Of a stretch of DNA of 14,352 bases, positions 1 to 14,352 are shown piece by piece. The DNA is taken from contig PBCW01000075.1 in NCBI GenBank assembly GCA_002718015.1, positions 1 through 14,352 on the forward strand, in the 5' to 3' direction. The position numbers and the translations under genes were made by a program. The notes beneath the pieces were generated by a model that was not told the origin of the DNA, searched no databases, and saw only the letters and a program-made list of their open reading frames with translations. Source of the stretch: Rhodospirillaceae bacterium (GTDB lineage Bacteria; Pseudomonadota; Alphaproteobacteria; UBA8366). The first letter of the stretch is position 1; the number at the start of each line of letters is the position of its first letter.

Positions 1-2
1 AT

Positions 3-1385: not shown

Positions 1386-1409
1386 CTGCTCTGACTGCCC
1401 TTTACGCTT

Positions 1410-1436
1410 CCCGATCAGGCAGTTGCTCGGGTTTTT
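1410..1436 (+). terminator. Possible weak terminator after the photolyase-family gene
   Basis: CCCGA (1410-1414) can pair with TCGGG (1427-1431) across a 12-base loop and is followed at once by TTTTT. The stem is only 5 bp, so this is a weak Rho-independent terminator candidate, placed 25 bases after the stop codon. Confidence 0.3.
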
Positions 1437-1490
1437 GTGATAGATTCCCGTACGACAATCCTTGCCATACCCAAGGGGCGAAATAAAGAT

Positions 1491-2171
1491 TATGACTGCT
1501 GCATACCATCCGCTGATCATGCTTCTAGTAAGCGCAGTTTTGCTGTTCCACAAGATTCCGGCTCTGGGCCAGGACTTCGCCAGCCCCGAGGACGAATTTG
1601 GCTCAATGTTAACGCCCCTGTCGCAGGTGGGGGCTCAATATGCGCTCGCTATCACAACTGGAATAGTGGGACCTTTTCACCCCTATCACAGGATCAGCTG
1701 CTTCTTTTCCGGAACGCCTACGCGGCCGTCTCCCTGGCAGACGACGACTGGTTAAAGACCCTTGTTACAGACATTGATAACAATCAGGATATGTATTTGT
1801 TCGTCTCTAACATTCGTCAGCTTGCGCAGAATGATATGGGAGTGAAATACCTTTTTCAGGAACCGTTCGATGACAAAAAGAAACAACATCGAAGACTGGC
1901 CAGTAATTTATCGAGCGAGCCGGTCGCGATCGTTGGAATCTTCTGGTGCCAGCTCATGGGAGAGAACTCAGCACCCAGGTTCACCGGCGGCTAAGCATAC
2001 CTCAAACGGCGCGACTGGGACTGGAAGTTCCAGACCCGATAGCGCAGTAGCCTCGCGTCGGGAGAAAAGCCAGATAATCTCCCTTTTTGCCGGCAGGGAA
2101 GTACTCGGGAGCGCACGCTGCATTACGTTCAGTCAGGACCTGAGGTGGCGCTACGCAGCATAGAAGTCTAG
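1491..2171 (+). pseudogene. Decayed, multiply frameshifted gene for a secreted protein (unrecognised)
   Basis: I do not recognise a family. The ATG at 1491 opens a peptide with a convincing Sec signal: a short polar start, the hydrophobic run LIMLLVSAVLLF, then PALGQ as a plausible cleavage region. This frame stops at 1753-1755. Protein-like sequence continues in the third frame from about 1666 (FSPLSQDQLLLFRNAY, then DDDWLKTLVTDIDNNQDMYLF) to a stop at 1992-1994. It appears again in the second frame at about 1926-2045 (RWNLLVPAHGRELSTQ, QTARLGLEVPDPIAQ), then in the third frame to 2169-2171 (RTLHYVQSGPEVALRSIEV). Joining these pieces needs several frame changes, so a dead gene or poor sequence quality is likelier than a live gene. 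This is the only content I see between the photolyase-family gene and nei; 2172-2324 holds nothing I can name. Confidence 0.3.
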
Positions 2172-2324
2172 CAAATCAGGCAAGAATCTCCGCAGCAACC
2201 AAACTCTTGGCTGCGGCGACGATGACCTTCAGCGCTATGATCGCGCGCAGCATGAATAGAGTCATCCGATTGATAAACTGAAGCTAAACTATTTTGTCGC
2301 CAATCCCAAAATTGAATTCTGTCT

Positions 2325-3146
2325 TCAGGCGTCCTGGCAGCCGGGGCACCAGTAGAGTCTTCTGCCGGAAAGCAAATCCTTTCTGATGCTGTCGCCACAC
2401 TCATAGCAACTTTGCCGATGCCTACCAAATACCGCGTGACGAAATGCCCCGCGCTTTAGTCCCTGCTTTTTCAGGTGAGCCACCCGGCGGGGAGGATTCG
2501 TAATACCGGCTGTCCGATAGGCCCTCTGACTTATCTTCAAGGTACTGCGCCCCAGATCATTGAGCTGCTTAACACTCAAGTCTCGGGGTCTGGCATCCGG
2601 AAGAACCTTCGCATCAAACAGAATTTCGCTGCGCAAGTAGTTGCCAATGCCCGCGAGAAAATCCTGAGCAAGATAGAGAGATGCGAGAGTCCGTCGCCGA
2701 AAACGTTCGCTACGCAGTCGTTGAGAGATTTCTTTCCAATTCAGCTTGGGATTCAGAATGTCTGGGCCAATTTTTGCCAAAAAGGGATGGAGATCAAGCT
2801 CAAACCGATCCCAGATACTGATGTCACTGGCGCTGTACAGCAGCGCACTGTGAGTGCACGTATGCAGCGATAGGCGCAAACTCCGATTTGTTTTAGGGTA
2901 AGCATCCCGCTTGACTACATACCAGCGTCCATACAACTGATTGTGCGAGTAGATCGTGAGTTCATTGTCGAAGTGGGTAAGCAGGGCCTTGCCGCGGGTT
3001 TCAATTTCACGCACCTCGGCACCCCGAAAGTCACGCTCCCTGCCCTTTAGACGGTCCAGACCAAAATGGATATCTACAATTTGCTGGCCTTCCAGAACCT
3101 GGGCAATTTTGTCGGCGGCGCGCCGAATTTCAGGTCCTTCGGGCAT
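2325..3146 (-). CDS. nei: Endonuclease VIII (DNA glycosylase/AP lyase)
   Basis: Base-excision repair enzyme of the Fpg/Nei family. It removes oxidised pyrimidines such as thymine glycol and then cuts the abasic site by beta,delta-elimination. The start is fixed by MPEGPEIRRA: after Met removal Pro1 is the Schiff-base nucleophile and Glu2 the catalytic acid. The family lysine sits in ETRGKALLTHF (Lys53 counting Met). The Nei-type void-filling loop region reads SHNQLYGRW. The helix-two-turn-helix region contains FLAGIGNYLRSEIL. The C-terminal zinc finger is C-x2-C-x16-C-x2-C, starting CYECGD and ending YWCPGC. Length is 273 aa against 263 in E. coli, and no key residue is missing. No clear Shine-Dalgarno precedes the ATG. 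It lies 76 bp downstream of glmM on the same strand and may be co-transcribed with it, apart from the hairpin between them. Confidence 0.95.
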   Translation of the reverse strand: MPEGPEIRRAADKIAQVLEGQQIVDIHFGLDRLKGRERDFRGAEVREIETRGKALLTHFDNELTIYSHNQLYGRWYVVKRDAYPKTNRSLRLSLHTCTHSALLYSASDISIWDRFELDLHPFLAKIGPDILNPKLNWKEISQRLRSERFRRRTLASLYLAQDFLAGIGNYLRSEILFDAKVLPDARPRDLSVKQLNDLGRSTLKISQRAYRTAGITNPPRRVAHLKKQGLKRGAFRHAVFGRHRQSCYECGDSIRKDLLSGRRLYWCPGCQDA

Positions 3147-3170
3147 AAGATGGCCACATGAACAGGCAGG

Positions 3171-3204
3171 TTACGTGAGTGCTGTAGAAACTACGTAACA
3201 GCAC
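3171..3204 (-). other. Inverted repeats between glmM and nei
   Basis: GTGCTGT (3179-3185) and ACAGCAC (3198-3204) form a perfect 7-bp stem with a 12-base loop. TTACGT (3171-3176) and ACGTAA (3193-3198) are a competing 6-bp pair, so the two structures are mutually exclusive. On the glmM-nei transcript the hairpin starts 19 bases after the glmM stop codon and is not followed by a run of U. It looks more like a processing, attenuation or protein-binding structure than an intrinsic terminator. Its role is unknown. Confidence 0.3.
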
Positions 3205-3222
3205 CCAAATAGATCAATCCGA

Positions 3223-4578
3223 TCAGGCAAATTCCTCAGCTTCAGCGGCAACCACATCCGCCAGTTCCCGCGCTAACCGCGCAACCAGATCCGCGTCTTC
3301 GCCTTCGACCATCACCCGCAACACCGGCTCGGTGCCTGAGGGGCGCAACAGTACGCGACCTCTGCCCTGCAATTTGGCTTCCACGCCCGACACGGCGTCA
3401 CGAACGCTCTGGCTGGCTGAAACATTGGGATTCTGACCCAGTCTGACGTTGATCATGGTTTGTGGAAACTTCTGCATCGCGCTGCGTAATTCCATCAGGG
3501 GCTTGTCAGTCAGTGCAACAGCGGTGAGCGCCTGCAGGGCTGAGACGATACCATCCCCGGTCGTCGTAATATCGTGACAAATGATGTGTCCGGATGATTC
3601 ACCGCCAAGCTGCCATCCGCGCTGCAGCATTTCCCGCAGAACAAACCGGTCGCCAACTGCCGTGCGTGCGAAAGGAACTTCTAATTCTACAAGCGCCAGC
3701 TCCATACCAAGGTTGCTCATCTTAGTTCCCACAACACCACCGAATTCAATATTCCGGCGCCGGCGCTCGCAGGCAATCACGAATAGCATCTCATCGCCAT
3801 CAACGACATTGCCCTCGTGATCCACCATGATGCTCCGGTCACCGTCGCCGTCCAGTGCAACGCCGAGGTCAGCGCCCACCTCGAGAACTTTTTGTTTGAG
3901 CGCTGCTGGCGATGTTGAGCCGATTTTATCGTTGATATTTAAACCGTTTGGGTCAGTTCCGATGCTGACGACATCTGCCCCCAGTTCAGACAGCACAGCA
4001 GGTGCGATGTCGTAAGTTGCACCATTGGCGCAATCCACAACGACCTTCAGTCCCGAAAGTGTCAACCTTGAGCCAACGGTGCTTTTACAGAACTCGATAT
4101 AGCGGCCTCTCGCGTCGTCTATTCTGCTGGCCTTGCCCAGAAATTTCGGTGCAACTGTCGTCAGCGCCTTGCTGAGTTCCGCTTCAATCGCCAGTTCGAT
4201 CTCATCGGGCAGCTTTGTTCCATTGTCGGAAAAAAACTTAATCCCGTTATCCTCGAAGGAATTGTGCGACGCGCTGATCACGATACCCGCTTGAGCACGC
4301 AGAGTGCGCGTCAGGTAAGCAATGGCAGGTGTCGGCATCGGGCCAGTGAGATTGATGTCCACCCCTGCTGCCGTCAGGCCTGCTTCCAGCGCAGCCTCAA
4401 ACATGTAACCGGAGATACGCGTATCTTTGCCAATCAATATCTTGCTGCGGTTACCGCCTTGAGTGAACACCTTACCGGCTGCCCACCCCAGTTTAAGCAT
4501 AAAATCAGGGGTAATCGGCGTCTGGCCAACCTTGCCGCGGATACCGTCTGTGCCGAAATAGCGTTTCTGAGCTGCCAT
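3223..4578 (-). CDS. glmM: Phosphoglucosamine mutase
   Basis: Converts glucosamine-6-phosphate to glucosamine-1-phosphate, the step between GlmS and GlmU on the way to UDP-GlcNAc for peptidoglycan and LPS. It is a cytosolic member of the alpha-D-phosphohexomutase family. The start at 4578 gives [15 protein letters not shown], matching the E. coli N-terminus; the frame is open further upstream (to 5004) but that part runs antisense into glmS. The phosphoserine loop reads ISASHN (Ser104 is the equivalent of E. coli Ser102), the metal loop DGDGD, the sugar-binding loop ESSGH (E. coli ENSGH), and the phosphate-binding loop RPSGTEP. Length is 451 aa against 445 in E. coli. No Shine-Dalgarno is visible; the leader is A-rich and probably unstructured. 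It is transcribed away from glmS, with nei 76 bp downstream. Confidence 0.97.
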
Positions 4579-4670
4579 AATTGTTGTTGTCGTTTTTCGA
4601 TGCAGGAACGAATAGTAAGGAATCTGAGCCCAGAGTGCGAGTACTAACCTGTACCCGCTCGTCGCGCTGA

Positions 4671-4699
4671 TTGTGGGCCAGCGGTATCTGGGAGATAAT
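4671..4699 (+). promoter_or_regulatory. Candidate sigma-70 promoter of glmS
   Basis: TTGTGG (4671-4676) and GATAAT (4694-4699) are separated by exactly 17 bases. The -10 box matches the consensus at 5 of 6 positions, the -35 box only at its TTG. It ends 35 bases before the glmS ATG, inside the 156-bp divergent glmM-glmS intergenic region (4579-4734). I found no equally good promoter for glmM on the other strand; TACTAT read on the minus strand near 4614-4619 is a weak -10 candidate. No GlmZ-like pairing site or ribozyme-type leader (as in Gram-positive glmS) could be recognised. Confidence 0.4.
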
Positions 4700-4734
4700 T
4701 TGTAGCCTTCACTTACTGCGAGCAGGTCAGACCC

Positions 4735-6570
4735 ATGTGCGGAATTGTCGGCGCAATTGCTGAACGGAATGTCACCGAGATCCTCCTGGAAGGATTGAAA
4801 AGACTGGAATATCGCGGTTACGATTCGGCGGGTATCGCGCTGCTTGCCCCTGACCGAAAAACAGTCAAAGTGCATAAAACCGCCGGCAAGGTGAGTAAAC
4901 TGGTAGAGCGGGTCCAAGGCAAAGCGCTGCGGGGCCACGTAGGCATCGCCCACACACGCTGGGCAACTCACGGCAAACCCACTAACGTCAATGCGCACCC
5001 TCACAGTTCAGGCGGACAAATCGCCATTGTTCATAACGGCATCATCGAGAATTTTGAAAAACTTCGGGAGAAGTTGACCGAATCCGGATGTCAATTCGCC
5101 ACGCAGACTGACAGTGAAGTCATTGCGCATCTGATCCATCTTGAGCGCAAGGGGAATAAAGTTTCTCTGTTCGATGCGACCCAAAAAGCAATCAGACGCC
5201 TCGAAGGCGCTTACGGCATTTGCGTCGCCGATGCAGCCACACCTGATGAATTAATCGTCGCGAGATCAGGCAGCCCGCTGGTAATTGGTGTCGGGATCGG
5301 AGAGAACTTCGTTGCCTCTGACCCACATGCGCTCGGCCAGGTGACCGATCAGTTTGTCTACCTTGAAGAGGGAGACATTGCCCGAATTACCCTTGAAAAC
5401 TATGAAATTTGGCACGACAGCAAGCAGATAAAACGCAAAGTTAGCACAGTGGCGGGCCATAGCAGTGATGGTGATAAGGGCACCTACAAGCACTTCATGC
5501 TGAAAGAAATTTATGAGCAACCGGCTGTCATCCGGGACACGCTGGACGGCAGGGTTTCGAAAAACAAAGTCCTGGAGAATGCATTCGGTGTCAAGGCACC
5601 GGCCATTTTCGACAAGGTCAAACACGTCCAGTTCGTCGCGTGCGGCACTTCCTATCATGCCTGCCATGTCGCCAAATACTGGTTGGAGTCCATCGCTCGC
5701 ATGGAGTGTTCAGTAGACATTGCCAGTGACTATCGCTATCGGGACATCATCGTGCCAGACGGGTCTTTGCTGGTCACCGTGTCTCAATCCGGTGAGACTG
5801 CAGATTCTCTGGCCGCGCTTCGCTACGCCAAAACACTCCCTTACACTGCCTATCTGGCGATTTGCAACGTTGCCACTAGTTCACTGGTGCGTGAATCAGA
5901 CTTTTCTTTACTGACGATGGCCGGGCAGGAAGTCGGCGTTGCCTCAACCAAAGCGTTTACGGCACAGCTCGCCGTGTTGCTGATCCTGACCATTGCGTTG
6001 GGACGCCGGAATAGTCTAACACCGCGAAAAGAGGCAGCCCTGGTCAGAGAGCTTAACCGCTTACCGGACCTGATCGAAAGCACGCTGAGCCTCAACAGAG
6101 ACATTCGCAAGATGTCGCGACAATTCGCTGATAAGCACCACAGCCTTTTTCTTGGCAGGGGAATCCAGTACCCCATCGCGAAAGAGGGCGCTCTAAAACT
6201 GAAGGAGATATCTTATATACACGCCGAAGCCTATCCTTCAGGCGAACTTAAACATGGACCGCTGGCACTGGTCGATGAAAACATGCCGGTCATCGCAGTA
6301 GCTCCCAATGACGATTTGCTTGAAAAACTGCGCACCAACCTAGCAGAAGTCAGCGCCCGGGGCGGAAAACTGTACGTCTTTTCTGACGAGAGCGTGAACT
6401 ACCAGGGCGACAAGAATTGCAAGGTCATCCACGTCCCGGCCTCACCTGATGTTCTCGATCCGATCGTCTTCACCATTCCGCTGCAGCTCCTGTCTTATCA
6501 TGTCGCCATCGTTAAAGGCACAGATGTAGACCAGCCTCGTAATTTAGCTAAATCGGTTACAGTGGAATAG
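4735..6570 (+). CDS. glmS: Glutamine:fructose-6-phosphate amidotransferase (isomerizing)
   Basis: First committed enzyme of amino-sugar synthesis: fructose-6-P plus glutamine gives glucosamine-6-P plus glutamate. The N-terminal class II glutaminase begins MCGIVGAI, with Cys2 becoming the N-terminal nucleophile after Met removal; [10 protein letters not shown] and HNGIIENF are the glutamine-site motifs. Two SIS isomerase domains follow, with [24 protein letters not shown] and the catalytic [14 protein letters not shown] region. The C-terminus is [14 protein letters not shown]; its Lys corresponds to E. coli Lys603, which forms the Schiff base with the sugar, so the last five residues SVTVE form an essential tail. 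Length is 611 aa against 609 in E. coli, complete and intact. The Shine-Dalgarno is weak (AGGT, about 8 bases upstream). The gene's last codons are also the attTn7 recognition region in other bacteria, and the AT-rich island starts right after the stop codon. I see no GC-rich terminator after it. Confidence 0.98.
6553..6570 (+). repeat. glmS-tail repeat, copy A (the genuine gene end)
   Basis: TCGGTTACAGTGGAATAG encodes Ser-Val-Thr-Val-Glu-stop, the C-terminus of GlmS. Its first 14 bases are repeated exactly at 9402. This is the presumed original attachment site; TnsD of Tn7 reads the same part of glmS in other bacteria. Confidence 0.7.
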
Positions 6571-6683
6571 AATAAACCAGACTCTCTGCGTCACTTTCCC
6601 ATCACCTCGCAACATCTTCCCTTAAAAAAGATTTTTTAGAAGCCTCTGTAATCGTCGAAATTAAACATTCCTATCTTGGTGGA

Positions 6684-6899
6684 GTGAATGAGTATTATTG
6701 GAAGTTAATAGAGGTTATAGAGGATCTCAGGGGTTCTGGTTGGGAATATAAAGAGGTTGCTGGTTATTAAAATAATCTTGGTTATCGAAGTAGACGTGGA
6801 AAACTTTTTTATGGGAGTTTGGTTGAAAGGATTCATAAGAAATATCTAGCAAAACTAGAAAACGAAAAAATCAGAGATATTCGCATCCACATAAAATAG
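6684..6899 (+). pseudogene. Small recombinase-type HTH protein, one in-frame stop
   Basis: GTG at 6684 (VNEYYWKLIEVIEDL) opens a frame that reaches TAG at 6897-6899 with one internal TAA at 6768-6770. The TAA falls in the phrase GY-stop-NNLGYRSRRGK. The paralogs at 9370 and 12571 have DYLN at this place, so the stop most simply replaces a Leu codon (TTA to TAA). The pattern of I-x2-L-x3-G-x-s-x3-I-x2-YLN-x-x-G-y-x-x-R-x-G followed by V-x2-I-x-KKY resembles the DNA-binding part of serine recombinases (Pfam Recombinase, PF07508), but here it stands alone without a catalytic domain. Protein-like sequence also extends upstream without a start codon (SYLGG and before). It is the first gene of the island, about 130 bp behind the glmS tail. 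The fold assignment is by pattern only. Confidence 0.5.
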
Positions 6900-7087
6900 T
6901 AAAAGTGGTATATGGGTGTGTCGTGTAATGTTTTACTACTTTCTGGGGGGATATAAATAGCAGATAAACAAAGAAATATTTTGCTCTAGGTTTTAGATAG
7001 ATGATTTCAGTCTTGGTTTATAAAAGTGAATTAAGGGATTGCATGTAAGGAAAACCTTTCATATCCCCTTTTGCAGTTACCTTAACT

Positions 7088-7507
7088 ATGAAACCCGATA
7101 AGTCGCATTTTCATACCCAGAAAATCAGACACTTTAGCAATCGCTTAAATCAATCATGTCTGCAGAACAATTATAGAAGGAAAAGAAAACGTTTAACGTT
7201 TATCCCTATCAAGTTAGGCAATTCTTATATTCACACACACTTCCATTTAATTATCGATAATCCTTATAAGGATAGAAGCGATGAGTTTGTTGGCGAGGTT
7301 AAATCCTGCTAGGGAAAAACGTCTGGAAGTCTTCCAAGAATTTTAGTTGAGGAAATGAGAGACGATGTATGGATTGCTTATATAACCAAGTTTAAAAGCA
7401 AATCCAATTATAGGGATTGCGTGGATTGGGATAATGTTTGGGTTAATCGAGGTTATATATACCGCAAACCTCTGTTATCAAACCTACCTGTATTGAGTCT
7501 GAATTAG
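7088..7507 (+). pseudogene. Rep-like protein with HUH and Tyr motifs, one in-frame stop
   Basis: The frame runs from ATG 7088 with an internal TAG at 7310-7312, between SC and GKTSGSLPR, and continues in the same frame to TAG 7505-7507. Before the stop it contains HTHFHLIIDNP, which fits the His-hydrophobic-His metal motif of HUH nucleases. After the stop it contains VWIAYITKFKSKS, which fits the Tyr-x-x-Lys catalytic motif of single-tyrosine Rep proteins, then DCVDWDNVWVN. The N-terminal part is basic (RRKRKRLTF). Such proteins nick and rejoin DNA to start rolling-circle replication of small plasmids and filamentous or single-stranded phages. The pair of motifs in the right order and spacing is the whole evidence. 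No Shine-Dalgarno precedes the ATG. The 3' end overlaps the convergent minus-strand gene (7443-7507), so its true end may be nearer 7440. Confidence 0.4.
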
Positions 7508-7847
7508 CATAAGGACTTTCTGGATTTTCTGGATTGATAGTGGTTTCTTCTCTTCCTCTTGCCATTGATTGTTTATATAACGTAAAACTAAATAACCTCA
7601 TTCCTAATGTCGCACAATTACCTTCCAATTAATTCGTTGAGGAGAGATGTCCAAACTTGTCGGGTTTAAGGTTATTTTGCAGATACGTAAAATAGACAAG
7701 TCCCCGATATACCCTCGTTTGCTCATAGTCCAAATAAAATTCATTACCTTCTGGGTTTGTTGTCCTCTTAGTCCACTCCCCAAAAGACAGCGACGAGAAA
7801 GTTATCGTGGATAGCAGCAGAGATAGTGTTAGGATTTGCTCTCTCAC
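7443..7847 (-). pseudogene. Small secreted protein (surface-adhesin E-like), one in-frame stop
   Basis: On the minus strand GTG 7847 starts a Sec signal (MREQILTLSLLLSTITF with cleavage near SFG), then EWTKRTTNPEGNEFYLDYEQ and LKPDKFGHLSSTN. A TAA at 7631-7629 interrupts it. The same frame then continues LEGNCATLGMRLFSF, YKQSMARGREET and ends EVCGIYNLD before the stop at 7443. The order of features (WT...fYlDy...L-x-N-x2-KPD-x2-G-x-LS...C...GRG...C) fits a family of about 130-residue exported proteins that I associate with the surface-adhesin E-like annotation. Removing the single stop restores a 134-codon protein. Its GTG overlaps the TGA of the upstream gene as GTGA, a sign of translational coupling. 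Function beyond export is unknown. Confidence 0.45.
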
Positions 7848-8271
7848 AGTACGTTGCCTTTCCTCTGATTGTCATATTCTGCTTGCTTCGAACCTTTTAA
7901 TAATTGCATTCCAATTGAGTAGGATTGATAACTTTCCATAACTTCGCAGGAATGTTCGTACCTCGGAGTGTTGTCAATCGATACGACTAATCGTCCATCT
8001 TTTCGGGAAAAAACGTAATTGACACTTACAATACGGTAGTCTCCCCAAGAGATTTCGTCAGGATTTGTAAAATAGTGTCTATATGTGTATTCACGAACAT
8101 AGAACTCTTCTTTTTCCCTTCTGAATTCCCCTGAACAACTGTACCTGAGTCGAAATAAAACCCTTGTATTATCTCTCCGTCATCTCTTGTGCAAATAATC
8201 CCCTTGCCATCGACTTGCCCGAAGCAGACAGCAGGCAAGCAAAATATGATTAAGAATGTGAGTTTTTCCAT
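7844..8271 (-). pseudogene. Small secreted protein, one-base frameshift
   Basis: ATG 8271 on the minus strand begins a Sec signal (MEKLTFLIIFCLPAVCFG, cleavage before QVDG), followed by GKGIICTRDDGEIIQGFYF. At about 8115-8121, in an A-rich GGGAAAAAGAAGAG stretch, the frame is lost. A one-base shift continues with EEFYVREYTYRHYF, NPDEISWGDYRIVSVNYVF and CEVMESYQSY to a TGA at 7846-7844. The intact product would be about 142 residues. I know similar marine exported proteins of the type signal-GK-x-I-C...W-x-x-Y-x-(I/L), but no function. It is the first gene of a two-gene minus-strand operon; its stop overlaps the GTG of the next gene. Homopolymer slippage or a sequencing error could both explain the shift. 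Confidence 0.45.
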
Positions 8272-8535
8272 CCCCTGATATTCTCAAACAATTTCCCAAA
8301 ATTGCAGTGTTTTTGCTTTCTAACTTTTCATTATCCCCTATCATCCCTGCAGTTTCGACAACAAATTTCCCCAAATGAACAGTTTTATAAATATTAGGTA
8401 TTTGCGGTAAATACGATGTATTGCCTGGAACTCAGACTGCAGGAAAATTTCGTCTAAATAAGGTTGAAAATCTTGATAGAGCAAATCTATCTAGTATCTG
8501 TCGCTTTGTCTGTTGGAATTAGAGAAGAAGTTTAA

Positions 8536-8733
8536 ATGGAAAGTATTGATAAGAAGTTGGTTAATTTTAGATGTGATATGGATGTGTTGGATAGGTTTGA
8601 TGAGATATGCAATTTTAAGAGAACAAATCGCACTCATATCCTAATCAATTTTATGAGAAATTTTGTTGTTGCTGAGAATGAAGAAATTGATAAGTGGAGA
8701 CTCTTATCAGATTCCATAATTAAACCGTCTTAA
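8536..8733 (+). CDS. Ribbon-helix-helix (CopG/Arc-type) small DNA-binding protein
   Basis: A 65-residue protein. The segment KLVNFRCDMDVLDRFDEICN gives the N-terminal beta strand and helix A of a ribbon-helix-helix fold. NRTHILINFMRNFVV gives the turn and helix B, where the family usually has sRs-x-l-I-x2-a/l-x2-f. Such proteins bind operator DNA as dimers and serve as repressors, antitoxins or plasmid copy and transfer regulators. GAGAAG upstream gives a modest Shine-Dalgarno. A loose promoter candidate lies at 8464-8491 (TTGAAA, 16 bases, TCTATC), in the 264-bp region that it shares with the divergent secreted-protein operon. It is followed by the recombinase-tail fragment at 8827, so it may control the element's recombination or replication genes (inference). 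No toxin gene is adjacent. Confidence 0.6.
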   Translation: MESIDKKLVNFRCDMDVLDRFDEICNFKRTNRTHILINFMRNFVVAENEEIDKWRLLSDSIIKPS

Positions 8734-8826
8734 ATCGTTTCTAAGAGGTTTTATCGATTAATCCGATGCAATTATCGGTGATTTGTAAATATGAGATATT
8801 CATGCAGTCTTTATAAGGAATTTTAA

Positions 8827-9373
8827 ATGTTACGTGAATATAAGAGTAATGTTAAATTACCGAAAGCAAAGACTGAGTTAGTTAGAGTTCGAAATTGCCC
8901 AAATACGAAAAACTGTCAAAAGACTGGACAACGCAATTATCGTGAACGAAACAAACAAGGTATTGACACCGAACAAGGCAAAACATCTCACGAAGTTAAC
9001 CAGCCACTTGGAAGTCGAAAAAAATTTAGAATTGCAAAAACTGTTGGAAAAGGAAAATCTGCTGACTGAATTAAGAAATGACGATGACTGGGTTGATTGG
9101 GTTAAAGATTATGGCAAGAAAGTCAAAAATCTGGACAAATTGAACAGAGATGCTAGAAATGCTGAAATCTTAAAATATGTTGATAACATCGTTGTTTCTT
9201 TCAACGAAGAAAGACGTACTCACAGTCTAGATGTCAGACTGAAATTGCCCATAATTGGTGACTCCTTAAAATATAAGAGCAAGAATAAGAAAAAGGGTTA
9301 TGAATTGGGTGAAGGAAGTTTTGTCGCTGCTGTCGATATCCAGTCACATGCAAAGAATCTCGGTAAAAGGTGA
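8827..9373 (+). pseudogene. Serine recombinase C-terminal fragment, frameshifted near its start
   Basis: A good Shine-Dalgarno (AAGGA) and ATG at 8827 start MLREYKSNVKLPKAKTELV in one frame. From about 8885 the protein-like reading moves to another frame (EFEIAQIRKTVKRLDNAIIVN), which stays open to TGA 9371-9373; a GTG at 8942 could also start it. The middle is a coiled coil rich in Leu, Glu and Lys. The end, EILKYVDNIVVSFNEERRTHSLDV followed by KLPIIGDSLKY and KKGYELGEGS, resembles the tail of many serine recombinases (hydrophobic I-V strand, H-x-L-x-V, F/L-K-x-P-I/V-x-x-D, then GY-x-x-x-EG). There is no resolvase catalytic domain (no Ser nucleophile motif) upstream, so recombination activity is not expected. 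It ends 28 bp before glmS-tail copy B, the expected place for an integrase beside its attachment site. Family call by pattern, moderate confidence. Confidence 0.4.
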
Positions 9374-9675
9374 GTCAAAATAAGGGTCTGGTTAATTCAA
9401 CTCGGTTACAGTGGAGTGAAATTCATAACTCTGACATCTACAACATCACACTCGGATGTATTGTCAGTATCACTTCTCGTAAATTCACAGTTTGTAGGTT
9501 GAGTGATGATTGGGAAGAACTACTCAAACTGATACACGATTTACACATCAACGAAATGTCGAATAGAGACATTTCAGACTATCTAAATTCAAATAACTAC
9601 AAACCAAGACGAACAGAGAATTTCTCAACAAAACTGGTTTGGAGTCTCATCGAAAAATACAAAATTCGACTTTAA
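9370..9675 (+). CDS. Small recombinase-type HTH protein
   Basis: 101 residues if it starts at GTG 9370, which overlaps the stop of the upstream recombinase fragment as GTGA (translational coupling). An internal ATG at 9556 could give only the HTH part. The C-terminal half, ELLKLIHDLHINEMSNRDIS followed by DYLNSNNYKPRRTENFSTK and LVWSLIEKYKIRL, aligns without gaps over its core with the proteins at 6684 and 12571. The pattern resembles the Recombinase (PF07508) DNA-binding region, without a catalytic domain. The first part of the frame reads straight through glmS-tail copy B (as TRLQWSE), so the N-terminal third may not be ancient coding sequence. A DNA-binding accessory or excision factor for the island elements is my inference. 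Confidence 0.5.
   Translation: MSQNKGLVNSTRLQWSEIHNSDIYNITLGCIVSITSRKFTVCRLSDDWEELLKLIHDLHINEMSNRDISDYLNSNNYKPRRTENFSTKLVWSLIEKYKIRL
9402..9419 (+). repeat. glmS-tail repeat, copy B
   Basis: TCGGTTACAGTGGAGTGA. The first 14 bases are identical to the end of glmS at 6553, 2849 bp away, and the 18-mer encodes the same Ser-Val-Thr-Val-Glu-stop with GAG TGA in place of GAA TAG. The bases in front (TTCAAC) do not resemble glmS, so only the tail is copied. It sits 28 bp after the recombinase fragment and inside the 5' part of the HTH frame. Candidate right attachment remnant of the first unit. Confidence 0.6.
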
Positions 9676-9743
9676 AAGCAGCATGAAGTGAAAATCAAAG
9701 CCGAAGAAATCGGATACTGGATTAGATAACTTAAGGAGAACTC

Positions 9744-10205
9744 ATGAAGATTTCAGCAATCAATGAAAGTGTTTCACTAATAGCAAATATCGGTGTAATT
9801 GGTTCAATCGTATTTCTGGGTTTAGAGATGCAACAAAACACGGAGATGATGCAATCGCAAACGAGAAATTCGATCGTGGAAAATCAACTCACATTCTACG
9901 AGAGAGCAATCGAAAATTCTGAAATCTTTGATATACGGAAGAGACTTGATTCAGGGTTATCTACTGAGGAAACTGAGGAGTTTCAATATACATATTTCCT
10001 GTTGTCGAATTTACGAATGTGGGAAAATGAATTTTATCAGAGTCAACTTGGACTTTTTGATTCAGATGAATTTGAAGCAAGAACGCATGCATGAAGGCGT
10101 CAGATGTCTATGGCTGTAAATTTAGGTATCTGGAGACGCTTAAAAGATGCGTTTGCTCCAGACTTTAGATTCTATCTCAATGAAATAATTGATGAAATTT
10201 CATAG
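9744..10205 (+). pseudogene. Membrane-anchored accessory protein, copy 1, one in-frame stop
   Basis: ATG 9744 has a strong Shine-Dalgarno (AAGGAG). The product begins with a membrane helix (residues about 8-26, SLIANIGVIGSIVFLGLEM), then MQQNTEMMQSQTRNSI and a helical cytosolic part (LSNLRMWENEFY). A TGA at 10092-10094 interrupts it; the same frame runs on to PDFRFYLNEIIDEIS and TAG 10203-10205. The paralog at 11296 has exactly the same length (462 nt) and a TGG (Trp) codon at the matching place (11644-11646), which shows that a Trp codon was lost here. The architecture, an N-terminal helix followed by QIRQN or EMQQN, is common in uncharacterised marine proteins. The small charged gene at 10221 follows after 15 bp and is probably co-transcribed. 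Function unknown. Confidence 0.6.
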
Positions 10206-10220
10206 AGGATAGGAAGAGTC

Positions 10221-10406
10221 ATGAGCAACGAAAAGGATATGCACAAAACTGGATGGAAGAATATAGATTTGCCGCCTCATTTGAAAAAAGCACGAGAAGA
10301 GCAAGAGCGGTTAAATCAAGAGAAGACAGATAAAGATCCTGCTGAGAAAGATTTAAAGTTTACAACTGCGGAAGAATATATGAATCAACAAGCAGAGGAA
10401 GATTGA
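10221..10406 (+). CDS. Small charged protein (unrecognised), intact copy
   Basis: 61 residues beginning MSNEKDMHKTGWKNIDLPPH, then a very charged helical stretch (LKKAREEQERLNQEK) and KFTTAEEYMNQQAEED. No membrane helix, cysteine or known motif. AGGAAG before the ATG is a fair Shine-Dalgarno. It follows the membrane protein copy 1 after 15 bp. Truncated and broken copies are at 11773 and 12780; the one at 11773 keeps the same upstream partner and the same spacing, so the pair moves or duplicates together. An accessory subunit or antitoxin-like partner of the membrane protein is possible, but there is no direct evidence. Confidence 0.55.
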   Translation: MSNEKDMHKTGWKNIDLPPHLKKAREEQERLNQEKTDKDPAEKDLKFTTAEEYMNQQAEED

Positions 10407-10490
10407 GATCGTCTAAAGCGTAATCATCAAGGTCAAAATATAGCCAGCAACCGAGTTGCTTGAAGTCAGGAAATATTAGGAGGAAAAAGA

Positions 10491-11060
10491 ATGAGTTTTC
10501 AGGAACTGGGTTCACTCGGCGAATTTATCGCGGCAATTGCTACTGTAGCGACACTACTCTACCTATCTGCGCAGATTAGACAGACCAATTTAATAACCAA
10601 AGCGCAATTTGGTCATGGTTTAACGCATCGACTATACGAACGATTTTTTCACACGGCAAAAGATCAGGAGTTTGCTGAGTTTATTGGAAAGGATTGGGCT
10701 TCAGAGGATATTAATTCTGTGGATAAATCCAGGATTACATTTTTTACGATCATGCTTTTGGTTGATGTATTCGATGTTTACGACAAGGTTCAGCAAGGTC
10801 TTGTAGAAAAGAAGCACCTAGATATGAGGGTTCATATGCTGAGAACTGGTATTTTTAGATCCCCGACGGGAGAACGAGTCTGGAAATTTTGGAAGAACCT
10901 TCGTGAAGCGGAATTTGCTGATTGGTTTGAAAAGAATATCGTTGATCCGAGTACCACCGCAGAATTTGTAAAGAGAATGCAGGAAGAGAATCCTGAGCTT
11001 TACAATGAATTAAAAGGTGATCATGAAAAATCTGAAAATAGTTTTTTTAGGGTCGACTGA
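10491..11060 (+). CDS. Membrane-anchored accessory protein of the QIRQ type
   Basis: 189 residues, intact, with a strong Shine-Dalgarno (AGGAGG, 9 bases before the ATG). The N-terminus MSFQELGSLGEFIAAIATVA continues as TLLYLSAQIRQTN, one membrane helix (about residues 8-26) followed by the polar QIRQ motif. The rest is soluble and mainly helical (YERFFHTAKDQEFAEF, WKFWKNLREAEFADWFEKNI) and ends in an acidic-polar tail. It has the same architecture as the proteins at 9744 and 11296, but the soluble part is longer and shows no close match to theirs, so it is an older relative at most. This type is widespread in marine bacteria and uncharacterised. It stands 84 bp after the small charged gene. 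No frame damage. Confidence 0.6.
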   Translation: MSFQELGSLGEFIAAIATVATLLYLSAQIRQTNLITKAQFGHGLTHRLYERFFHTAKDQEFAEFIGKDWASEDINSVDKSRITFFTIMLLVDVFDVYDKVQQGLVEKKHLDMRVHMLRTGIFRSPTGERVWKFWKNLREAEFADWFEKNIVDPSTTAEFVKRMQEENPELYNELKGDHEKSENSFFRVD

Positions 11061-11295
11061 AGACTGAGCTTTGGGCACGGAAGTTTAGTCGGATCGCAAC
11101 TCGAGATACAAGCAACAGCTTCTTTAATCGCTCTTCAGTCACAGTGTATTTTTCGTTTTTCAATAAGAAAGCTGTCTCTCTCTGCCAAATTGCAAGGTAC
11201 GACTCTCATCACGCTCATGACTGAAGATCACGCCCTCAGTTTCCTATTCAACAATCCTTCGATAAGATAAAAACACAGAAATCAAAGGAGGATTT

Positions 11296-11757
11296 ATGAA
11301 GATTTCAGCAATCAATGAAGGTGTGTCACTTATAGCAAACATTGGTGTGATTGGTTCAATCATATTTCTAGCTTAAGAGATGCAACAAAACACGGAGATG
11401 ATGCAATCGCAGACTAGGAATTCTATCGTTGCTAATCAATTGTCAGTCTACGATAAAATGGTCGAGAACCCTGAGCTTTTTGATATAGCGGATAAACGTA
11501 GTGCAAATCTAGATGTTACGAACGCTGAATGGCAACAATTACACATTTTTATATTGTCACAATTGCGAATCTGGGAGAACGAATTCTATCAATATCAAAT
11601 AGGACTCTATGCCGCAGAAGAATTCGAAGCAAGGAAAATTTGGTGGGCAAAAATAATAGGAATACCTGTCAATTTACAAACTTGGAGAAGTGAACAAGAA
11701 ACATTTTATCCAGATTTCAGGATTTACATAAACGAATTACTTGGTGAGATTTCATAG
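11296..11757 (+). pseudogene. Membrane-anchored accessory protein, copy 2, one in-frame stop
   Basis: The paralog of the gene at 9744, 462 nt like it, starting MKISAINEGVSLIANIGVIG behind an excellent Shine-Dalgarno (AAAGGAGG). TAA at 11374-11376 breaks it inside the membrane helix (FLA-stop-EMQQ), exactly where copy 1 has the Leu codon TTA (9822-9824). Downstream the frame is intact: MQQNTEMMQSQTRNSI, LRIWENEFYQYQIGLY, PDFRIYINELLGEIS. Translation could restart at ATG 11380 but would give a protein without the membrane anchor. Nucleotide similarity to copy 1 is high over the first 130 bases and again at the end and into the next gene. The 235 bp before it (11061-11295) hold no gene I can support. 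Confidence 0.6.
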
Positions 11758-11772
11758 AGGATAGGAAGAATC

Positions 11773-11805
11773 ATGAGTAACGAAAAGGATATGCGTAAAA
11801 CTTGA
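11773..11805 (+). pseudogene. Small charged protein, truncated copy
   Basis: ATG 11773 starts MSNEKDMRKT and then reaches TGA. The first 10 codons, and the 15-bp spacing from the membrane gene, match the intact gene at 10221. After AAACT the sequence diverges completely and runs into the repeat E region, so this looks like a recombination or insertion junction and not a point mutation. Confidence 0.55.
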
Positions 11806-11836
11806 TGAAGTCGGATTGTATAATAGTATATTCTCA

Positions 11837-11850
11837 CCGATCACAGTGGA
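11837..11850 (+). repeat. glmS-tail repeat, copy E (degenerate)
   Basis: CCGATCACAGTGGA matches the glmS tail at 11 of 14 positions, without the stop codon. It is linked to copy C by a longer match: here the frame reads GLYNSIFSPITVD, at copy C it reads GLYSSICSVTVD, with synonymous changes in Leu, Tyr, Ser, Val and Asp codons. Confidence 0.35.
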
Positions 11851-11882
11851 TCACTTACGAGCATTGATTTAGGAATGAAAGA

Positions 11883-12278
11883 ATGAGTGAATTAAATAAG
11901 CCAAACAAGATAATTACATTTATTTTTGAATTGGGATTCATTAAAAGCGTGAATGAGGCTAGACAATTTATGAGGGAAAATTCATCTCCATATGTTTTTA
12001 ATTGTTCAGAACCTAAAACCATAAGATTTGAATGGTTTCTATCCGAAGATGAGAAGTCGGCAACATTAATAGAAATGTTTGAGGATAGCGATGCTGCCAG
12101 ATTAAGATTAGAAAATCACTCAGAAAGCCACCTGGTTAAAGAGTTCCCAGAATATTTTGAAATTAAGCAGTTTCTTGTATTGGGCGACATTAAATCAGAC
12201 ATGAAGGATAAGTTAACGGACTGGAATGCAGATCTAAGAGGAAATGTGGGCGGTTTTTTTAAAGGATTAGACCAATAA
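11883..12278 (+). CDS. ABM-like (dimeric alpha/beta barrel) small protein
   Basis: 131 residues, intact. The middle part, IRFEWFLSEDEKSATLIEMF followed by EDSDAARLRLENHSESHLVK, then FEIKQFLVLGDIKSD and a late GGFFKGL, fits a group of stand-alone proteins annotated as antibiotic biosynthesis monooxygenase (ABM)-domain-like. That group has y-E-W-f-l-S-x-D-g, y-E-x-y-x-D-S-x-A-x-l-x-H-l-x-N, f-x-v-x-G and a late GGF. The usual HLEN is RLEN here. The group's catalytic role is not established. The N-terminal 40 residues (KIITFIFELGFIKS) are not part of the pattern. AGGAA lies 8 bases before the ATG. It sits alone between repeats E and F. Confidence 0.45.
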   Translation: MSELNKPNKIITFIFELGFIKSVNEARQFMRENSSPYVFNCSEPKTIRFEWFLSEDEKSATLIEMFEDSDAARLRLENHSESHLVKEFPEYFEIKQFLVLGDIKSDMKDKLTDWNADLRGNVGGFFKGLDQ

Positions 12279-12300
12279 TAAACAAGCCTGCTACGGACGC

Positions 12301-12318
12301 TCTGCTGCAGTAGAGTGA
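12301..12318 (+). repeat. glmS-tail repeat, copy F (degenerate)
   Basis: TCTGCTGCAGTAGAGTGA matches copy B at 14 of 18 positions and in the same frame reads Ser-Ala-Ala-Val-Glu-stop. A longer comparison with copy C (GCTC before, GAGA after) gives 17 of 22 identical bases. On its own it would be weak; its position just before C and D makes it worth listing. Confidence 0.35.
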
Positions 12319-12380
12319 GATTACTGCACAAAAGACTCCAGTTCCGACTGGGTAAAAAAGGACTATACAGTAGTATATGC

Positions 12381-12398
12381 TCGGTTACAGTTGACTGA
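12381..12398 (+). repeat. glmS-tail repeat, copy C
   Basis: TCGGTTACAGTTGACTGA: the first 11 bases equal the glmS end and the 18-mer encodes Ser-Val-Thr-Val-Asp-stop. A short open frame (GTG 12315 to TGA 12398) ends on it. It lies 58 bp before copy D. Confidence 0.5.
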
Positions 12399-12438
12399 GA
12401 TTTACTACATGAAGATTCATAAGACTTACGAAATACAG

Positions 12439-12456
12439 TCCGTCACAGTGGAGTAA
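12439..12456 (+). repeat. glmS-tail repeat, copy D
   Basis: TCCGTCACAGTGGAGTAA encodes Ser-Val-Thr-Val-Glu-stop exactly, using TCC, GTC and TAA where glmS has TCG, GTT and TAG. A 15-codon open frame (ATG 12409) ends on it. Copy D is followed, 115 bp later, by the recombinase-type HTH gene at 12571. Confidence 0.55.
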
Positions 12457-12570
12457 GTTATTCAACACAGTTGAACTCTAAACTACACAACGGGATTTGA
12501 TATTCACATCTCTACAACTCGACTCTCTCAATTCTCACAGGAATAGAACTATGACTACAGAGAGAAGTTG

Positions 12571-12777
12571 ATGTATCGAATGAGTCAGAAAGGAATTTCC
12601 AATAAGGATATTCCTGACTATCTAAACGAACGACAAATCAAACCAAAACGCACTGAGCGATACACCACAAAACTCGTTTGGGCGATTCTTCAAAAATACA
12701 CAAAAAAACTAAACCGAAAAGATCGTCTCGAAGTAGAGTTTAGGAATATTGGACTTTATAAGCGAGTTAGAAATTAG
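12571..12777 (+). CDS. Small recombinase-type HTH protein
   Basis: 68 residues from ATG 12571 (a TTG stands directly before it). MYRMSQKGISNKDIPDYLNE followed by RQIKPKRTERYTTKLVWAIL and QKYTKKLNRKDRL aligns with the protein at 9370 (NEMSNRDISDYLN, KPRRTENFSTKLVW, KYKIRL) and more distantly with the pseudogene at 6684. The helices around GISNKDIPDYLN and TTKLVWAIL, with a basic stretch between them, resemble the DNA-binding region of serine recombinases; the C-terminal tail is basic. No catalytic residues are present. The Shine-Dalgarno is weak (AGAGAAG). The frame opens shortly before the start after a TAG, so unlike at 9370 it does not read through the glmS-tail repeat upstream. Confidence 0.5.
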   Translation: MYRMSQKGISNKDIPDYLNERQIKPKRTERYTTKLVWAILQKYTKKLNRKDRLEVEFRNIGLYKRVRN

Positions 12778-12779
12778 AC

Positions 12780-12977
12780 ATGTGCGACAAAAAAGATATG
12801 CACAAAACTGGGTGGGCGAATATAGAATTGCCAGCTCATTTAAAGAAAGCAAGAGAAGAGCGAGAGCGGTTAAATCAAGAGAAGAAAGATATTTATGCTG
12901 CTTAGAAGGATTTGAAGTTTACGACTGCGCAAGAATACATGAATTCGGGATCAGAGCATGATCGAGGCAGAGATTGA
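12780..12977 (+). pseudogene. Small charged protein, third copy, one in-frame stop
   Basis: ATG 12780 reads MCDKKDMHKTGWANIELPAH, then LKKAREERERLNQEKKD, a TAG at 12903-12905, and in the same frame KDLKFTTAQEYMNSGSEHD to TGA 12975-12977. The intact paralog at 10221 has GAG (Glu) at the matching codon (10344-10346), so one base change created the stop. It starts 2 bases after the HTH gene and ends 9 bases before the TPR gene, so it may still be transcribed with both. Here, unlike at 10221 and 11773, the membrane-protein partner is absent. Confidence 0.55.
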
Positions 12978-12986
12978 GAGTATTTA

Positions 12987-14352
12987 ATGGAACTTACTAT
13001 CGAACAAGCACTGCAGCAAGGCGTTGCCGCACACAAAGAGGGCAAGCTACAAGATGCTGAATGTTTATATCGGGCTATCTTGCAATCTCAGCCTCAGCAT
13101 CCAGACGCTAACCACAATCTAGGCGTATTAACAGTCTCTGTTAATAAAGCTGATGCAGCACTACCGTTATTTAAAACTGCTCTTGAAGCAAATCCAAATA
13201 TAGAACAATTTTGGCTCAGTTATATTGATGCACTTATCAAAGAAAAGCAGTTTGATAATGCGGAGGAAGTTCTTGAGCAGGCAAAGAATCAAGATGTGGA
13301 CAAAGAAAAATTAAATGTCCTGGAGGCTCAACTAGCCTCCATAAACAAACAAGAAACTGTTGTTAGTTTAAGCCCATCTCAGGAACAACTCAGTAGTCTT
13401 TTAGAACACTATCAGAGCGGACGATTTAGTGACGCAGAGAAGCTAGCTACAACCATAAGTAAAGATTTTCCTAATCATCCTTTTAGTTGGAAAGTTTTAG
13501 GCGCAGTATTAGGAGCAACAGGCAGAAAGTCTGAAGCCCTAAATGCCAATCAGACAGCAGTTGCGTTATTTCCTCAAGACGCTGCTGCCCACTACAACTT
13601 GGGTATCACGCTCCAAGCATTAGGAAGATTAGACGAAGCAGAAGCAAGCTATAGGCAAGCGATAGCGTTGAATCCGAACTATGCCCTAGCCCACAGCAAC
13701 TTGGGTGTCGCGCTCAAAGAACTAGGCAGATTAGACGAAGCTTTAGCAAGCTCTAGTCAAGCGATAGCGTTGAATCCGAACTATGCCCTAGCCCACAACA
13801 ACTTGGGCGTCACGCTCAAAGAACTAGGCAGATTAGACGAAGCTTTAGCAAGCTATAGTCAAGCGATATCGTTGAAGCCTGACTATGCCGAAGCCCACTA
13901 CAACTTGGGTAACACGCTCCAAGAACTAGGCATATTAGACGAAGCTCTAGCAAGCTATAAGCAAGCGATAGCCTTGAATCCGAAATATGCCCTAGCCCAC
14001 AGCAACTTGGGCAACACGCTCGAAGAACTAGGCAAATTAGACGAAGCTCTAGCAAGCTATAACCAAGCTATAGCATTGAATCCTGACTGTGCCCTAGCCC
14101 ACAGCAACTTGGGTAACACGCTCCAAGAACTAGGAAAATTAGACGAAGCCGAAGTAAGTTTAATGCAAGCGATAGCGTTGAAACCTGACTTTGCCGAAGC
14201 CCACTACAACTTGGGTAACATGCTCAAAGAACTAGGAAGATTAGACGAAGCTGTTGCAAGTTATTCGCAAGCCATAAAGTTGAAATCTGACTTTTCCGAA
14301 GCCCACAATAATTTTGGTAACACACTCAAAGAACTAGGAAGATTAGAAGAAG
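12987..14352 (+). CDS. TPR-repeat protein, 3' end beyond the window
   Basis: The frame is open from ATG 12987 to the right edge, at least 455 residues, with no stop codon. It begins MELTIEQALQQGVAAHKEGK, itself the start of a tetratricopeptide repeat. A less regular helical region follows (SPSQEQLSSLLEHYQSGRFS), and then near-identical 34-residue TPRs of the form AHxNLGxxLxELGRLDEAxASYxQAIALNP from about 13585 on. TPR superhelices bind peptides or protein partners. In bacteria proteins of this type often carry a C-terminal sulfotransferase, glycosyltransferase (SPINDLY/OGT-like) or methyltransferase domain, which would lie outside this window; none can be claimed. There is no signal peptide, so the product is probably cytosolic. 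Its base composition is less AT-rich than the island genes. A GAGAG about 8 bases upstream is a weak Shine-Dalgarno. Confidence 0.85.
   Translation, partial: MELTIEQALQQGVAAHKEGKLQDAECLYRAILQSQPQHPDANHNLGVLTVSVNKADAALPLFKTALEANPNIEQFWLSYIDALIKEKQFDNAEEVLEQAKNQDVDKEKLNVLEAQLASINKQETVVSLSPSQEQLSSLLEHYQSGRFSDAEKLATTISKDFPNHPFSWKVLGAVLGATGRKSEALNANQTAVALFPQDAAAHYNLGITLQALGRLDEAEASYRQAIALNPNYALAHSNLGVALKELGRLDEALASSSQAIALNPNYALAHNNLGVTLKELGRLDEALASYSQAISLKPDYAEAHYNLGNTLQELGILDEALASYKQAIALNPKYALAHSNLGNTLEELGKLDEALASYNQAIALNPDCALAHSNLGNTLQELGKLDEAEVSLMQAIALKPDFAEAHYNLGNMLKELGRLDEAVASYSQAIKLKSDFSEAHNNFGNTLKELGRLEE
13588..14352 (+). repeat. 102-bp tandem repeat coding the TPR array
   Basis: Seven full units and one partial begin at 13588, 13690, 13792, 13894, 13996, 14098, 14200 and 14302, each with CCCAC and a following ACTTGGG or close variant. 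The spacing is exactly 102 bases (34 codons) throughout, and units share long identical blocks such as TTAGACGAAGC. Such similarity favours unit gain and loss by recombination or slippage. Confidence 0.9.

Follow-up and report, generated by a model that had tools for sequence, protein, structure and literature searches.

Copies of the glmS 3′ end as probable attachment sites of a family of large serine recombinase elements

Introduction

Why should the last codons of a housekeeping gene recur in the DNA behind it? The question is raised by a stretch of 14,352 nucleotides assigned to a Rhodospirillaceae bacterium (contig PBCW01000075.1 of assembly GCA_002718015.1, positions 1 to 14,352 of the forward strand; hereafter the window), in which the target gene glmS (4735–6570, on the plus strand like the tails, units, A domains and LSR remnant of the window described below) encodes a protein of 611 residues ending in SVTVE-stop, and in which this ending, here called the tail, is found again further downstream. 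A sequence-only reading of the window had proposed that mobile units insert behind glmS and carry a substitute tail, that the copies came from different glmS alleles, and that repeated insertion left a ladder of tails. The analysis described here indicates that the tails are very probably attachment sites of a family of large serine recombinase (LSR) elements, which would use the last glmS codons as the bacterial attachment site (attB) and whose integration would split the recombinase unit. In the following, A denotes a small protein family encoded behind the tails, and L, G and P numbers denote loci, genomes and proteins, respectively.

Copies of the glmS Tail

The 3′ end of glmS, up to position 6570, reads TCGGTTACAGTGGAATAG. 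The copy at 9402, TCGGTTACAGTGGAGTGA, shares its first 14 bases with the glmS end and encodes SVTVE-stop, as does the copy at 12439, TCCGTCACAGTGGAGTAA, while a further copy at 12381, TCGGTTACAGTTGACTGA, encodes SVTVD-stop, so that the repetition noticed in the sequence-only reading is borne out at all three positions. Chance is ruled out for the exact copies at 9402 and 12439. With up to two mismatches to WSNGTNACNGTNGANTRA, the window holds 6 matches (the glmS end counted) against 1.41 expected, a number reached by none of 200 dinucleotide shuffles of the window; exact matches in the island 6571–12500 amount to two on the plus strand and none on the minus strand, and among 5000 first-order Markov simulations of this island none gave at least two plus-strand matches and three gave one. 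Composition-matched sequence hence does not yield as many matches. By contrast, the weaker copies proposed at 12301 and 11837 do not rise above chance, since the former has two mismatches, a level at which 1.4 matches are expected, and the latter gave no match in the pattern search of the window. The strong copies at 6553, 9402 and 12439 are backed independently, because each is followed by a stretch resembling the A domain (6675–6869, 9439–9705 and 12496–12750) and an LSR remnant precedes 9402.

It is extremely improbable that the copies arose without any mobility, as duplicated pieces of glmS or by chance. Such an origin could point to G043 and G030 (L035 and L037), where longer duplicated glmS ends occur in stretches with no A or LSR match. 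However, at least two matches were seen in 0 of 5000 simulated islands, and the window copies match glmS over about 18 bp only and, like those of the relatives described below, fall together with A and LSR ends.

Elements Behind glmS in Other Genomes

Further genomes show the same anatomy downstream of glmS, which supports both the proposed insertion of mobile units at this place and the growth of the ladder by repeated insertion. An intact element has the order glmS – tail – small open reading frame (ORF) A – cargo – LSR – tail. At L133, glmS is followed by a tail at 4422, by A, by an LSR at 12315–13985 and by a second tail at 14044, giving an element of 9.6 kb. Both ends are also contained in one stretch at L187 (8.4 kb), L188 (5.9 kb), L101 (5.0 kb, with a decayed LSR) and L100, and a full LSR adjoins the far tail at L133, L187 and L188. 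Near-identical parts were found at different sites: between G828 and G858 the LSR is 98% and A 99% identical, with A lying behind glmS in G828 and behind the end of another element in G858, where A and LSR are on separate contigs.

The LSR of the SAR116 element (L056 and L133, one gene) comprises 580 residues, ends inside the inner tail, matches PF00239 (E 9.9e-18) and PF07508 (E 6.1e-14), and carries an RVS motif with Ser12 as well as DRSRLFR, so that both the resolvase catalytic domain and the Recombinase domain are present. A Foldseek search with the model of its homologue P0084 returned serine integrases as best matches (9dxd, E 5.7e-20). LSR genes or remnants precede the far-end tails in the window (8867–9361) and in G167, G209, G228, G358, G427, G441, G828, G858, G865, G880, G916 and G944; the far-end tail of G358 keeps 11 of 14 fixed positions. 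Judged by these genes, the agent of the glmS-tail insertions is a large serine recombinase.

At the protein level 75 relatives were found, whose source labels are mostly ENA and JGI assemblies, and a genome scan gave 29 loci, which according to the record titles belong to Rhodospirillaceae, SAR116, other Alphaproteobacteria, Gammaproteobacteria and Flavobacteriaceae; the element family looks mostly marine. The linkage to glmS holds for most relatives: with extensions counted, glmS is present in the locus or record of 22 of the 29 loci, but is not visible in seven (L048, L058, L060, L063, L071, L072 and L073). Among 385 class genomes drawn evenly, 18 matched, four of these with long LSR-like frames and one with a fragment of 46 residues, and 11 of the 12 small-ORF genomes other than that of the window have glmS in the locus. 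LSRs are rare in reference genomes: P0076 found a match in 3 of the 385 class genomes (E ≤ 1e-15) and P0084, through its LSR or its A part, in 40 of the 136 genomes from the order to which G426 belongs (E ≤ 1e-10). The A6 query gave no match at E ≤ 1e-30 among 369 genomes of the class of G427, not even in G427 itself, whose LSR is decayed, and is therefore uninformative. Among viral contigs the A3 query found no relative and the A6 query seven distant ones (24–28%), and the plasmid and phage collections returned distant LSRs only.

A pattern search of 144 genomes revealed close tail copies on one contig in G000 (the bin that holds the window), G001, G005, G050, G043 and G030. In G043 and G030 the second copy lies within a longer glmS-like duplication (L035 3198–3368 and L037 6486–6503), with no A or LSR match in the stretch. 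At L036 (2081–2597) tail copies are just 237 and 262 bp apart, forming very small units, again with no A or LSR match. Inverted A ORFs lie beside the tail at L056 (9378–9689), L062 (2572–2841), L070 (6595–6891) and L099 (8647–8964), so that some units seem to be bounded by A-type ends on both sides; a reading of these minus-strand ORFs as terminal inverted repeats was dropped. In a scan of 126 of 177 candidate cargo ORFs, methyltransferase, HNH and other nuclease families were recurrent, with two to three members each among the matches listed.

Probable Strand Exchange Within the Tail

To locate the crossover, pairs of junctions with a shared flank were compared; candidate tails were those with AC at positions 7–8. 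Where the upstream flank is the same (at least 0.95; 13 pairs), agreement is 26/26 at wobble positions 3 and 6 and 7/26 at positions 9 and 12, whereas with the same downstream flank (at least 0.95; 12 pairs) the values are 6/24 and 18/24, respectively. At a looser limit of 0.68, agreement at positions 3 and 6 is 57/104 for shared upstream flanks against 19/108 for downstream ones, and at positions 9 and 12 it is 31/104 against 60/108. We infer from this switch that strands are exchanged at the AC of the Thr codon (tail positions 7–8), which would be the central dinucleotide shared by attB and the attachment site of the element (attP). Two points weigh against this placement: the pairs are not independent, and L053, L058, L060, L061, L072 and L108, which form part of the same-upstream set, have a longer glmS-like upstream flank. 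The longer glmS-like ends before the tails of these six loci (..RNLNIAVTVE, ..RNLPITVTVE) are common to several genomes.

Since the flanks switch at AC, the element would supply only T-V-E-stop to GlmS, while the S-V codons remain those of the host. Indeed, among the 33 inner copies followed by an A, mismatches occur in codons 1–2 in 13 cases and in codons 3–6 in two, or 15 of 132 bases against 2 of 330, while the 36 copies adjacent to glmS have none; a copy had to keep at least 12 of 14 fixed positions, which bounds its possible deviation. The stronger deviation of the inner copies in codons 1–2 is explained if only the half after AC is supplied to GlmS. The substitute tail that the units had been thought to carry is thus narrowed to this half, although the supply of an ending as such stands; likewise, the alleles do differ as had been proposed, but largely because each inner copy would combine sequence from two elements. 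The remaining half of a copy would belong to the recombinase gene of the element, at its 3′ end, and the site can hence code in two frames. The comparison of empty and filled sites, suggested along with the first reading, could be made for G228, where LSR, tail and gene follow one another and the gene region begins about 110–117 bp after the tail; in two genomes of the same genus with empty sites the same gene follows the glmS tail at a similar distance, 106 bp in G449 and 89 bp in G445. In the other relatives compared the interval is 0.5 kb or longer, or the stretch retrieved contains no glmS.

The position of the switch also bears on Tn7, a DDE transposon that, like the LSR elements, uses the 3′ end of glmS (attTn7, recognized by TnsD), and to which the sequence-only reading had linked the locus. 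Tn7-like transposons could have left the tail copies as relics of their recognition site, and a recognition that tolerates wobble changes would likewise yield synonymous copies; furthermore, one of the 126 cargo ORFs matches a PHROG named transposase (phrog_157, E 3.4e-104). However, Tn7 inserts 3′ of the glmS stop codon and does not replace the tail, whereas here the flanks switch inside the coding tail at AC, and the element ends carry an LSR or its remnant. No Tns protein was found in a Pfam scan of nine window sequences, nor among the 25 listed of the 110 Pfam families of the 126 cargo ORFs, neither of which was a dedicated Tns search. A Tn7-type agent accordingly has next to no probability left; the breakpoint and the anatomy led to the rejection of both Tn7-like insertion and simple duplication of glmS.

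The A Domain as a Probable Part of the Recombinase

A appears to be a fragment of the recombinase. With a model built without LSR rows, A was found fused as a C-terminal domain in 10 of the 101 nearest LSR homologues (of 107 listed), and these fused forms span ten protein clusters. At their joins the pattern [SGRC][NDHY][SGRC][GR][VIM], which is the tail read in frame +2, is complete in 7 of 10; P0098 and P0126 have its last four residues and P0174 has the +1 reading, while the unfused P0113 ends in SVTVE. At the DNA level, the LSR frame reads through the tail into the following sequence at L124, L126 and L189. In the AlphaFold model of P0084 the tail-coded residues lie in a low-confidence linker (552–587), which is followed by a confident three-helix domain; Foldseek with the A domain alone gave no match at E ≤ 0.001. 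Pairs that allowed dS to be calculated show purifying selection on A (dN/dS, the nonsynonymous and synonymous rates, 0.083/0.457, 0.084/1.26 and 0.0037/0.050; two pairs were saturated).

An alternative would keep the two genes apart, with ordinary LSR islands at glmS, A as an independent small DNA-binding gene near attP, for example a directionality factor, and the fusions as chance tandem junctions. Co-inheritance was tested in seven elements by comparing the nearest fused homologue of the LSR with that of the A at the far end. At L133, LSR and own far-end A are 79% and 83% identical to P0084, while the adjacent A has 42%; at L187 both are 59% identical to P0167 and the adjacent A gives no match; at L188 the values to P0167 are 65% and 62%, against 23% for the adjacent A. 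An LSR and an A about 4–8 kb away that are nearest to the same fused protein, as in these three of seven elements, argue that integration most likely cuts the recombinase gene at its own dual-coding attachment site, and speak against an independent A, as do fusions in ten protein clusters. The reading frames point the same way: counting codons that lie wholly after the core, the frame from core to A is open in 37 of 38 cases of phase +2, against 12 of 38 for the other non-GlmS frame, and in 25 of 27 cases of phase +1; phase 0 occurs in 4 of 69. Across 42 pairs of fused proteins, LSR and A identity correlate moderately (Spearman 0.33).

Several observations weigh against a split recombinase gene, and some of them favor an independent A. 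Of 15 distinct LSR 3′ ends (16 rows, L056 and L133 being the same), 10 stop before the tail, and hence before attP, so that direct fusion is not universal. Co-inheritance is missing at L100, L101 and L137/L138, where fused relatives are distant only, and unit 1 of the window agrees weakly (P0126). A may start within or after the tail, as at L039 (GTG 2124) and L033 (GTG 3842). Arrays can place a foreign A beside an LSR: the LSR of L189 is 99.5% identical to the fused P0091, yet is joined to a foreign A. The fused proteins are known as protein only, and an in-frame tandem junction could mimic some of them. For phase +1, the other frame has nearly the same share of open cases (21/27), and inclusion of the core-spanning codon leaves 12 of 27 phase +1 frames open. 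Finally, the Flavobacteriaceae loci L134 and L135 have an A-like domain right after the LSR; at L134 this domain precedes the tail, and at L135 no tail was found. On balance, an A gene independent of the recombinase is regarded as unlikely.

Proposed Integration and a Possible Switch

For a recombinase unit split by integration, the following course can be proposed. In a free circle the attachment site would lie inside the reading region of the recombinase, in the order LSR core, glmS-like tail and helical C-terminal A domain, the tail serving as a flexible linker when read in frame +2 (or +1). Strand exchange by the LSR would fall on the AC within the Thr codon, the host keeping S-V and the element giving T-V-E-stop. 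Integration would cut the unit, leaving A beside glmS as an orphan ORF and the catalytic part at the far end, with loss of the long recombinase, and every further insertion would add one tail, building up the ladder.

How LSR cores that stop before the tail could be joined to A is suggested by a run of eight to ten A residues (A8–A10), located 47–76 nt before the tail in 11 of 14 LSR 3′ ends (L187, L188, L189, L133, L124 and others). The LSR bodies contain one such run in 17,342 nt, so that 0.08 runs would be expected in the 3′ ends. At L187, L188 and L100 a stop codon ends the LSR core ahead of the tail, and from the run to the crossover core only the frame of the own A is open. L101 has A6 runs only and two open frames, and the A8–A10 run is missing in the window remnant, L101 and L126. 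The runs suggest slippage that gives a short and a long recombinase. It is conceivable, at somewhat less than even chances, that the recombinase gene spans its own attachment site and yields two isoforms: a short one, the catalytic LSR that terminates close to the A9–A10 run, and a long one, LSR-A, read through the glmS-mimicking tail either directly or after slippage. The long isoform would then be lost for good upon integration while GlmS receives a working end, and the 18-bp site, coding for the GlmS tail and the recombinase linker in different frames, would be a built-in one-way switch.

The Decayed Array in the Window

Decayed LSR elements at glmS, arranged in an old array, make up the ladder in the window; unit 1 is left with LSR and A remnants. 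The left junction of unit 1 is the hybrid glmS tail at 6553–6570, with the crossover dinucleotide AC placed at 6559–6560 from the relatives. Unit 1 (6561–9407; 2849 bp from tail to tail) holds a decayed A domain, corresponding to the LSR C-terminal domain (6675–6869; A profile E 4.8e-08, phase +2 to the tail, with in-frame stops), cargo and the LSR remnant. The latter (8867–9361) matches positions 386–558 of the 567 of the LSR profile (E 8.5e-16), which found no catalytic domain; its frame ends with TGA at 9371–9373, and BLASTP against P0076 gave 28% identity over 115 residues (E 3e-04). Units 1 and 2 meet at the attachment site SVTVE-TGA (9402–9419, probable core AC 9408–9409). An ORF of 101 residues (9370–9675), overlapping the LSR stop in GTGA, runs in frame +1 through this site into the A domain of unit 2 (9439–9705; A profile E 3.3e-10, PF07508 weak). 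Unit 2 (9410–12444; 3037 bp from tail to tail) contains A and small cargo ORFs, and no LSR was recognised in it by the LSR profile search of the window. The degenerate copy SVTVD-TGA (12381–12398; 13 of 14 fixed positions) is probably a relic junction, and units 2 and 3 meet at SVTVE-TAA (12439–12456, probable core AC 12445–12446), followed by the decayed A domain of unit 3 (12496–12750, ORF 12568–12777; A profile E 4.8e-06, PF07508 E 3.7e-04).

Cargo is duplicated within and between the units with 76–82% identity (9733–9935/11285–11487, 10217–10407/12776–12966 and 10114–10255/11666–11807), and in unit 3 tandem 102-nt repeats encoding a protein that appears TPR-like by eye (13431–14342) reach the contig end. 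The window GlmS is 56% identical to GlmS of E. coli and of the gammaproteobacterium G427, and 48% to that of a genome of its own assigned genus, while GlmM has 46–47% identity to genomes of this genus. A second full-length GlmS was not found in the bin, G000, in which the window is contig C76. By these comparisons, the window is probably a misbinned gammaproteobacterial contig.

Relation to Known Systems

Cassette chromosomes (SCCmec/ECC) form tandem composite arrays. Their LSRs (CcrAB) target a conserved housekeeping gene, rlmH, in its 3′ region, and direct repeats lie at both ends, as stated in the relevant part of PMC6222049. The glmS elements resemble them in this choice of site, the repeats and the tandem arrays, but the target is glmS instead of rlmH, one LSR was seen per element instead of the ccrAB pair, and the repeat is an 18-bp tail instead of about 50 bp; an attP that lies within or runs into the recombinase coding region would be a feature of the glmS elements. 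The latter has an analogy in the archaeal SSV-type “suicidal” integrases, which have attP within the integrase gene and split it upon integration, and which are called exclusive to archaea in the pertinent section of a 2021 review (PMC8371274). An internal attP and a gene split by integration are proposed likewise for the glmS elements, given the ten fused homologues and the co-inheritance in three of seven elements, and with 10 of 15 LSR 3′ ends stopping before the tail. However, the archaeal enzymes are tyrosine recombinases, whereas the one described here is a bacterial serine recombinase (PF00239), and the glmS elements would split off the C-terminal domain and not the catalytic one. Among serine integrases, the streptococcal IME_Spy2096_SNF2 has its recombination site within the integrase gene (PMC5357655, in the part concerned), which already qualifies the “exclusively archaeal” of the review; it resembles the glmS elements in this respect, but inserts inside snf2, and that part of the source mentions neither a replacement gene ending nor a ladder.

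A search of the open-access literature gave no description of LSR elements at glmS; the main text of PMC12884075 does not mention glmS, and PMC11078800, in the part concerned, just cites Badel et al. 2020. As far as these searches show, each part of the system has precedents, while the combination with a dual-coding site that replaces the end of a housekeeping gene is undescribed in open-access literature.

Implications

If this reading is true, the glmS elements would represent a natural LSR family that targets a conserved housekeeping gene in two bacterial phyla without breaking it, and the attachment sites of these LSRs would be readable from sequence. Orphan PF07508-like ORFs behind glmS would be explained as recombinase fragments, and self-splitting integrases would be extended from archaea to a bacterial serine recombinase family. 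It would furthermore become a testable question whether directionality and silencing are built into the gene architecture itself instead of being provided by a separate factor.

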